The translations under genes and the position numbers were made by a program. Below, one piece after another: positions 20,677 to 23,617 of a stretch of 64,000 bases of DNA; within the stretch, counting starts at the first letter, position 1; every line of letters starts with the position of its first letter. The notes under the pieces were generated by a model. It searched no databases, was not told the origin of the DNA, and saw nothing but the letters and a program-made list of their open reading frames with translations. This DNA is from Elusimicrobiota bacterium (GTDB taxonomy: Bacteria; Elusimicrobiota; Elusimicrobia; 2-02-FULL-39-32): NCBI GenBank assembly GCA_016180425.1, contig JACPBF010000004.1, positions 1 to 64,000 of the forward strand, written 5' to 3'.

Positions 20677-20709
20677 CTTTAAACCGCAGTAAGCCCTATG
20701 GGTTTAAAG
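20677..20709. terminator. Bidirectional hairpin between convergent genes
   Basis: Nine-base arms CTTTAAACC (20677-20685) and GGTTTAAAG (20701-20709) flank a 15-base loop between the helicase stop and the fusion-enzyme stop. There is no long T-run. Confidence 0.45.
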
Positions 20710-23484
20710 CTCACAAACCGCTTTTATTGTATTTTTACCTTCTTGTAAAATGTGAATGAGTTCCTGAATGTTTTCCAGCCCTTTTACTTTGTCCGTCAAT
20801 AGTTTATTGAGCCATGTGGGCCATTGGAACTGGGCAAAACATAAATCTTTAATAGCCATTTCAAAATATTCTTGATTTGCATTTACACTGCCCACAATGA
20901 CTTTGTTGCCAAGAGAAAACCCAGCATTCATTAAGTTTTCAGAGATTTGTAATTTTCTTCCGCTGTCTGTAATATTGGATAAAATTAAAACCCCATTTTT
21001 GCCAAGATGGTTAATCGCTTCAAATGCTAAAGAAGAATTTCCAGTGGCTTCAAAAATAAGATCAAAAGGTCCATGTTCTTTAGAGCATTCAGCAAGCGTG
21101 GTTTCTTTGACGCTATGATAACAAGCCCCAATCTGTTCTATAAGAGAGGAATTCAGCGTAGGAGCTTTTGAGCGCGCAAGCGTACAGACTTCTATCCCTT
21201 TTAATCTTAAAAGTAAGCTTGTAATTAGGCCAATAGAACCTGCGCCAAGAACTGCCGCTTTTTTTGGTTTCCACATTTGTAAACGGCGTTGAATTTCGTA
21301 TGCCTGGAGAATTCCTTTTTCAATTGCGCTTGTTGGGGCAATCAAGACCCCGACTTCAAGCAGCTCTTTTGGAATTTTTAAAAGATGTTCTGGCCCTTCC
21401 ACAAACATTTCTGTAAGATAGCCATGAAGAAAGTTAATTCCTCGTTCATAGGTGGTTTCATCCAGGCTTAAATCATATTTGCCGATTTGATCATAGATGC
21501 TGTTCCCAGCTCTTGCAACTGTAGGAACTACAGTATCTCCGATTTCAAATTCATTTACATTGGGACCAACTTCCACTACCTGGCCAACACATTCATGTCC
21601 AATGATTAAGAAGTCTGAATCTCTCGGCGCATTCCCAGCGATCCCTGCATTTATTTCTTTATCGGTTTTATCTAAACCAACGCGCAAAGATTTTACTAAC
21701 ACACCTCTGCCATAAGGGAAATCTGTTATTTTAGGTTTGGGCAGTTCTGTAAGATGAAGGCTATTGGGTTTGCCTGGGTTAACGACCACTGCGTTCACGC
21801 TGATTTTTTCTTCAAAAAAACTGGCGGATTGCAAAACCTCTGAAACGATCCTTAAAATTTCTGCTAAGCTCCAGGCTTGGGAACGTGTTCCTCCTGGGCG
21901 ATAAGGAGGATTGCCGTCAAAAACTTCTGGCAAGGAGCCTTGGATATTGGTTAAGAAGAATTCTGTGAGAGGTGTTAACAACTTCAAGGTTTCCTTTTGA
22001 ATTTCTATTTTATTCTTGCCTTCTTCTTTTCTTACCTTTATCAAGGCATCTAAATAACTGCCCAAAAGCCAGGGCCAAACCGTGCCTTGGTGATAGGCTA
22101 AATCTTTTTCTTCAGGTGGTTTTTCAGTGTAATATCTATCCTTGTAATGCGGATCTTGCGGGGAAAGGGTTCTTAAACCAAATGGAGTGAGCAGGTGATT
22201 GGATAGGACATCAAATACTTTTTTTTGTCTTTCATAAGAGAGCAAATCATCGCTTAAACTAATTGCAAAGACCATGTTTGGCCGAAGCGCCGCGCCATGC
22301 ATGTCCCCTTCTATCACGTCATATAAAGAACTCTCTTTTTCATTCCAGAATTTTTTGTTAAAATTTTCTTGAACTTTTTTACTTAGTTCCTCATAAGACT
22401 TGATCCTAGCTGTGTTGCCAAGTCTGGATTCAAGTTCAATATAAAATTTAAGGCTTAAGTACCAAAGCGCATTGACTTCCACAGCTTTTCCATAGCGCGG
22501 AGTCACCGGGTTTCCTTTTCCGCCTGGATCCGCGTCCATCCAGGTAGATTGGGCTGGGCTAATAATGAGGCCATCCGTATCCATTTTTATTGGGCAGAAC
22601 TGTTGTAAGCGATTGTAGCCAGTTCCATCCTGATAAGCTTGAATGATATTTCTTACCGTAGGGCCAATCTGTTTTAGGAATTTCCAATCTTTACTGTAAT
22701 CCAGATATTTTTTAATGGCATAAATATACCAGAGAGGAGCATCTACAGTATTATATTCAATTCCATTTTGATCTTGAGAGCTGGGAATGATATTTGGGAT
22801 CAGTCCAGATTTTTCATAGCGGGTAAATTTTAAGATGATTCTTTTAGCTTCATTAAAATGGCCTGTGGCTAACAAGAGGCCAGGAAGGGTAATAAAGGTG
22901 TCTCTGCCCCATTCTTGTTGAAACCAGTCTAAACTGGAAGCGTAAATTTGTATTTCCTTGTCAGCCTGTTTTACAAATTCTCTAGAGGCTATTTTTAAAT
23001 TTTTAAAGATAAAATCTTTAAATTGGAAGATAAGCTGCTCTTGAATATTAAAGATTAAATTAAAAAGATCCTGATTGGTTTTAAGAACCAGATGGGAATT
23101 GCCAAAATTTTTTGCATTGCTAAAATCCGCATATAAAGATTCAATTTGAATCCATCCTTCCGGCCAGTCGTTTTTGTTCAGCCCGGGAATTTCGCTAAAG
23201 ATGGCAAAAGCCATTTGGAAAAAATCTCCATTGTGGGAATGATGAGCGAAACTCCATTCTCCCATCTTTCCGCTTGCCCGGATCAGTTCCTGAATCAAAA
23301 GAAAAATATTAAGACCCCTGCTTCTGATCGAACCATTGGCTAAAAGTTTTTTGCCAAAATCATAGCGCAGATTAAAGTCATTTTCTTTTTTTAGAGCTTG
23401 GATGGTGTTTTCAGTTAAATTGGAAGGGATTTGAATTGTTTTTTTAATGCTTTCCGTAATTATTTGTTCAACCTCTGTCTGCAT
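20704..23484 (-). CDS. Glycogen debranching enzyme fused to glucose dehydrogenase
   Basis: One uninterrupted 926-residue frame. Residues 1-560 are an amylo-alpha-1,6-glucosidase (GDE_C, (alpha/alpha)6) domain: QQEWGRDTFITLPGLLL, WMDADPGGKGNPVTPRYGKA, YHQGTVWPWLLG and RPGGTRSQAWSLAEILR. Residues 563-926 are a zinc-type medium-chain dehydrogenase closest in appearance to archaeal glucose 1-dehydrogenases: RVGLDKTDKEI (Asp where most have catalytic Cys, as in Haloferax), IIGHECVGQVVEVG, HGYLTEMF with the Glu ligand, and NAD(P) motif VLGAGSIGLI. The structural-zinc cysteine cluster is absent. The first half frees glucose at alpha-1,6 branch points; the second would oxidise it to gluconolactone. 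No signal peptide is present, so it should work on cytoplasmic glycogen. Confidence 0.82.
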   Translation of the reverse strand: MQTEVEQIITESIKKTIQIPSNLTENTIQALKKENDFNLRYDFGKKLLANGSIRSRGLNIFLLIQELIRASGKMGEWSFAHHSHNGDFFQMAFAIFSEIPGLNKNDWPEGWIQIESLYADFSNAKNFGNSHLVLKTNQDLFNLIFNIQEQLIFQFKDFIFKNLKIASREFVKQADKEIQIYASSLDWFQQEWGRDTFITLPGLLLATGHFNEAKRIILKFTRYEKSGLIPNIIPSSQDQNGIEYNTVDAPLWYIYAIKKYLDYSKDWKFLKQIGPTVRNIIQAYQDGTGYNRLQQFCPIKMDTDGLIISPAQSTWMDADPGGKGNPVTPRYGKAVEVNALWYLSLKFYIELESRLGNTARIKSYEELSKKVQENFNKKFWNEKESSLYDVIEGDMHGAALRPNMVFAISLSDDLLSYERQKKVFDVLSNHLLTPFGLRTLSPQDPHYKDRYYTEKPPEEKDLAYHQGTVWPWLLGSYLDALIKVRKEEGKNKIEIQKETLKLLTPLTEFFLTNIQGSLPEVFDGNPPYRPGGTRSQAWSLAEILRIVSEVLQSASFFEEKISVNAVVVNPGKPNSLHLTELPKPKITDFPYGRGVLVKSLRVGLDKTDKEINAGIAGNAPRDSDFLIIGHECVGQVVEVGPNVNEFEIGDTVVPTVARAGNSIYDQIGKYDLSLDETTYERGINFLHGYLTEMFVEGPEHLLKIPKELLEVGVLIAPTSAIEKGILQAYEIQRRLQMWKPKKAAVLGAGSIGLITSLLLRLKGIEVCTLARSKAPTLNSSLIEQIGACYHSVKETTLAECSKEHGPFDLIFEATGNSSLAFEAINHLGKNGVLILSNITDSGRKLQISENLMNAGFSLGNKVIVGSVNANQEYFEMAIKDLCFAQFQWPTWLNKLLTDKVKGLENIQELIHILQEGKNTIKAVCEL

Positions 23485-23617
23485 GGTATTTTAAGCTCTC
23501 CTTTATAAATTGGTCTGTTCATTAAAAGTATAGGAAAAAGAGGGGGTGAAATTCAATCTTCTTCTTGTCTGATAGTTTTAAATGTGATACTATCCATAAA
23601 ATAATAAAAATATTTTT

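Follow-up and report, generated by a model that had tools for sequence, protein, structure and literature searches.

A single open reading frame in the genome of an Elusimicrobiota bacterium encodes a GH133-like glucosidase fused to a Haloferax-type MDR glucose dehydrogenase (GDH). The frame is located on the minus strand of the window (the whole stretch of 64,000 nucleotides that was analyzed) at positions 20704..23484 and comprises 926 amino acids and the stop codon; an earlier note on this DNA had reported the frame at this place without stating the strand. A GGAG that may serve as ribosome-binding site is located 13 nt 5' of the ATG (23498..23501, minus strand, as for all positions of this gene given below). 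The genome (2.6 Mb, 98.5% complete) belongs to a genus of uncultured groundwater bacteria. The fusion itself is real and combines known families in an architecture that we could not find described: a literature search of open-licence papers returned no enzyme of this build, and the fusion was found in one genus.

Domain searches and solved relatives agree that a glucosidase and a glucose dehydrogenase share the frame, as had been proposed from the sequence. The GDE_C / GH133 amylo-alpha-1,6-glucosidase domain covers residues 166-545 (21850..22989) and was detected by Pfam with 382.6 bits (gathering score 21, E 2e-114, profile positions 2-367 of 367); it could be aligned to 5D06 and 8ZEQ. By sequence, the best solved relatives of the N-terminal half are eukaryotic glycogen debranching enzymes (GDE), in their GC domain. 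The Haloferax-type MDR glucose dehydrogenase domain covers residues 563-926 (20707..21798). Here, Pfam found ADH_N at residues 595-706 (46.8 bits) and Glu_dehyd_C (PF16912) at residues 710-926 (162.5 bits, E 1e-47), both above the gathering score, and a search of the PDB by sequence identified the glucose dehydrogenase of Haloferax mediterranei (Hm) as the best solved relative (E 1e-49).

Homology to GDE ends at residue 549 and homology to GDH begins at residue 563, leaving a short linker at residues 550-562 (21799..21837). Codon 563 is a GTG (21796..21798), which the alignment and a comparison of codons place opposite the first codon of the unfused GDH. It is a possible internal start; a strong ribosome-binding site was not seen. 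The N-terminal module (residues 1-165, 22990..23484) matches no Pfam family, and its counterparts were detected with blastp and tblastn using residues 13-560 and 23-547 as queries. In genome G322, a stand-alone GDE of 539 aa begins with such a counterpart, ahead of GDE_C; another is located between GH77 and GDE_C in genome G242, probably also in G244. Since residues 1-165 occur together with GDE_C in these proteins, they are part of the glucosidase module.

Relatives were checked for the same fusion. The genomes searched included one further member of the genus, a second species, and it carries the 926-aa frame. The two proteins are 97% identical over residues 1-926 and are encoded with the same neighbours in the same gene order. 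The frame of the second species is also present in an independent public record (MGUU01000013.1, Elusimicrobia bacterium RIFCSPLOWO2_02_FULL_39_32). The earlier note had named the loss of a stop codon through a sequencing error as a possible refutation; this is excluded by the single open frame in the second species and by this record. The two fusions show 123.5 synonymous and 38.5 non-synonymous differences, with no frameshift and no stop. With an intact frame in the second species and this pattern of differences, the probability that the gene is decaying, or that the fusion arose from an error in assembly or sequencing, is negligible.

According to the Nei-Gojobori method, dN/dS between the two fusions is 0.152 for residues 1-150, 0.056 for GDE_C, 0.072 for GDH and 0.072 overall. 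The low values in the glucosidase and the dehydrogenase show that both halves are under purifying selection and maintained as protein. Neutral decay of the GDH half was ruled out, since its dN/dS is close to the 0.085 determined between the unfused GDHs of these two genomes.

None of 338 further Elusimicrobiota genomes (340 with the two carriers) contains both halves in one frame. A search of PLSDB plasmids gave no match covering 80% of the query, and a scan of viral contigs for the fusion returned nothing. The scan of genome contigs, which reaches close relatives only, detected the sister species, one relative with GDE alone and nothing else. An 894-aa GDH-containing frame in genome G226 was considered as a second fusion and rejected: Pfam finds no family in its N-terminal stretch, which is located amid many overlapping open frames, and we took this stretch as a chance upstream frame.

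The catalytic residues of the glucosidase have been defined in the eukaryotic GDE of Candida glabrata (CgGDE; GC domain, PDB 5D06; GH133). The acid/base pair is formed by Asp1241 and Glu1492, and Asp1078 is probably in contact with the leaving glucosyl group; glucosidase activity is abolished by D1241A, E1492A and D1078N (PMC4837477). All three residues are matched in the fusion. Direct alignment to 5D06 pairs D317 with Asp1241 and D195 with Asp1078; E520 corresponds to Glu1492 and was mapped via the human LPE motif, with the Cg numbering inferred. D317 and E520 are identical in 35/35 sequences compared, and D195 in 33/35. As judged from these alignments, the glucosidase catalytic residues are intact in the fusion. 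In contrast to the eukaryotic GDE, the fusion has no glucanotransferase half and carries a dehydrogenase in its place. GH77-GH133 proteins of other Elusimicrobiota contain a related GH133 domain (45-58% identical), but its partner there is a 4-alpha-glucanotransferase-type GH77, not a dehydrogenase.

The dehydrogenase half carries changes at conserved positions. Asp605, His630 and Glu631 align with Hm Asp38, His63 and Glu64, in agreement with the previous assignment of Asp (not Cys) as zinc ligand; this position is occupied by Cys in Sulfolobus and other Elusimicrobiota. Also as claimed before, the alignment shows no structural-zinc cysteine loop, and the Rossmann glycine motif is intact. The fused half thus belongs to the same MDR family as Hm GDH (PDB 2B5V, 2VWG/H), with the Asp38-type zinc ligand, His63 and Glu64 and without the structural-zinc cysteines, but differs from it in having Ala for Glu150 and Ala for an invariant Arg and in being the C-terminal half of a glycosidase. 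In the zinc-site set Asp/Cys38, His63, Glu64 and Glu/Gln150, the fusion has D605, H630 and E631, and the fourth residue is Ala716 (codon at 21337..21339). Ala occupies the Glu150 position in both fusions, while all unfused relatives compared have Glu, except Sulfolobus with Gln. In the sister species the following residue, normally Pro, is Ser (LLAST), and the stretch around this position looks relaxed. Both fusions also carry Ala657 at a position where every unfused relative compared has Arg. The earlier note mentions neither this change nor the one at Glu150. Among the 35 columns invariant in the unfused relatives, 33 are kept in one or both fusions, and only two (R657 and V857) are altered in both.

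Hm Glu150 has been described among the coordinating residues around a moving zinc (PMC11194214). The catalytic Zn of Sulfolobus GDH is bound by Cys, His, Glu67 and water (PMC9795676), and residue 150 is therefore not an essential ligand in the GDH family. Since the active-site Glu150 and the invariant Arg are lost, glucose oxidation cannot be assumed; from the alignment and the selection data we read the fused dehydrogenase as an altered but maintained enzyme. The loss of the conserved Glu150 is a natural test of which zinc-site residues the dehydrogenase family needs.

The dehydrogenase half could also have given up catalysis, or most of it, and act as an NAD(P)-binding or oligomerizing platform that holds or regulates the glucosidase. 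The loss of Glu150 and Arg657 in both species and the further drift beside residue 150 would fit such a role, as would the purifying selection that still acts on a fold-forming sequence and the finding that related MDR sugar dehydrogenases are tetramers (PMC9795676). We consider it possible, if on the unlikely side, since Asp605, His630 and Glu631 are kept, 33/35 invariant columns are preserved in at least one fusion and Sulfolobus GDH is active with Gln instead of Glu150. A rather doubtful further idea is that selection has converted the dehydrogenase half into a redox-cofactor sensor or an altered dehydrogenase that functions without the usual zinc environment; it would couple the release of glucose from stored alpha-glucan to the cellular NAD(P) state.

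Unfused paralogues of both halves are encoded in one gene run on contig C18 of the same genome (G000:C18:534-541 kb, locus L026). This run comprises a 406-aa GDE, a cyclase-family hydrolase, a Gnd-like gene for an NAD-type 6-phosphogluconate dehydrogenase (passing TIGR00872), a GDH and an 896-aa GH63/MGH1-like glucosidase, which matches the mannosylglycerate-hydrolase-like family PF22422. Unlike in the fusion, GDE and GDH are here two genes, with the cyclase-family and Gnd-like genes between them. The C18 GDE is 59% identical to the fused half and has no residues 1-150, and the C18 GDH is 63% identical to the fused dehydrogenase half and has kept Glu150. Maximum-likelihood trees join the fused GDH to its unfused counterpart in the genus (100/98) and place this pair beside the haloarchaeal enzymes of the Asp38 type (84/85); fused and unfused GDE likewise form a group (93/86). 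The fusion junction is located exactly at the start codon of the unfused GDH, and the GTG codon 563 is common to both species. In the simplest history, a glucosidase-dehydrogenase pair would have been duplicated, followed by loss of the intervening sequence and of the glucosidase stop; the C18 GDE and GDH are likely the modern forms of the ancestral pair. At the corresponding locus of the sister species (L028:7350-7530), the GDH and the GH63-like gene are kept and the GDE, cyclase and Gnd genes are missing.

The favored reading is that of a bifunctional enzyme that arose from the joining of two co-operonic genes and couples glucose release to oxidation as a two-step hydrolase-dehydrogenase. 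The N-terminal GH133-like module would hydrolyze single glucose stubs in alpha-1,6 linkage, or a comparable end of an alpha-glucoside, freeing glucose, and the C-terminal MDR domain would bind NAD(P)+ and oxidize the sugar at C1 to the lactone. The substrate and the cofactor are inferred, as are the oxidation itself, in which Asp605/His630/Glu631 would hold the Zn in the absence of Glu150, and any benefit of having the two halves close together; we give the coupled reaction an even chance. The intact glucosidase residues, the purifying selection on both halves and the unfused relatives being operon partners make this reading a natural one. The earlier proposal that glucose is passed straight to oxidation is supported by the same three lines of evidence, and weakened in its oxidation step by the loss of Glu150 and of the invariant Arg. 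The changes Glu150 to Ala and Arg657 to Ala and the drift to Ser beside residue 150 were counted against coupled oxidation, together with two results from the genomes: no gluconokinase was found (neither a GntK-type, TIGR01313, nor an FGGY kinase above cut-off in the two genomes of the genus), and the fusion's own locus has no sugar-metabolism neighbours.

Gene neighbourhoods elsewhere contain a comparable pairing. GDH and GH63-like glucosidase genes are adjacent in genome G226, and in G021 they are separated by one redox-protein gene (Pyr_redox and 4Fe-4S domains); both genomes are from other families, distant from the fusion genus. On plasmid p3 of Azospirillum brasilense, GDE and GH63 genes are adjacent and follow an NDH-2-like gene. 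The GDH-GH63 and GDE-GH63 neighbours show that hydrolysis of alpha-glucosides and oxidation of glucose are connected also where there is no fusion, and the recurring GDH-GH63 neighbours, taken together with the operon of unfused paralogues, indicate that glucose release and oxidation are linked in the phylum.

Family searches of both genus genomes found a ROK glucokinase, a GT5 glycogen synthase and an alpha-glucan phosphorylase-like protein; GH77 and glucose-6-phosphate dehydrogenase (G6PDH) were not found. Since no G6PDH was found and the glycogen synthase is present, oxidation of free glucose would be a sensible source of reducing power. The ROK-family glucokinase makes the bypass of hexokinase, suggested in the earlier note, an option and not a need. 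The fused gene is, by profile score, not the only debranching enzyme of the genome: a canonical archaeal-type GDE encoded elsewhere passes the TIGR01561 equivalog (380.2 bits, cut-off 364.15), while the fused glucosidase half stays below the cut-off with 273.1 bits.

With a separate GDE that passes TIGR01561, both halves of the fusion might be active on another alpha-glucoside or aldose, leaving glycogen to the canonical enzyme. The absence of a detected GH77 that would prepare single-glucose stubs in either genome, the match of the GH63-like operon partner to PF22422 and the several aldoses accepted by the related Sulfolobus GDH (PMC9795676) are in line with this. We regard it as improbable, because the residues of the glucosidase pocket match the eukaryotic GDE and because other Elusimicrobiota have the same GDE clade fused to a GH77 4-alpha-glucanotransferase, an arrangement consistent with debranching of alpha-glucan. 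If the coupled enzyme is active, it would be a natural one-protein cascade from alpha-glucan to oxidized sugar and NAD(P)H, in bacteria without detected G6PDH, and a route that turns the free glucose from glycogen branch points into reducing power.

Several other multidomain frames were observed. GH77 and GH133 occur in one frame in other Elusimicrobiota (L029:6913-11703, minus strand; L030:6813-10208, plus strand; L033:8440-11595, minus strand; L036:6747-10109, plus strand), giving the activity pair of the eukaryotic debranching enzyme with GH77 replacing GH13. A 3502-aa frame at a locus of 31% GC in genome G242 (L079:7792-18297, minus strand) has HAD-like, lysine-decarboxylase-like, carbohydrate phosphorylase/glycosyltransferase, GH77 and GH133 matches and possibly combines much of the glycogen-breakdown chain in one protein. 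Frames of 2700-2868 aa with subtilase S8, HEAT, GH77 and GDE_C matches are encoded in genomes of family f8 (L031:7311-15914, minus strand; L034:2922-11021, plus strand). An 850-aa protein encoded at L026:3684-6236 (plus strand), beside a phosphate permease and adjoining the glucosidase and GDH genes, consists of a radical-SAM part and an arsenite-methyltransferase-like part; it resembles arsenosugar genes, but scores below their cut-offs.
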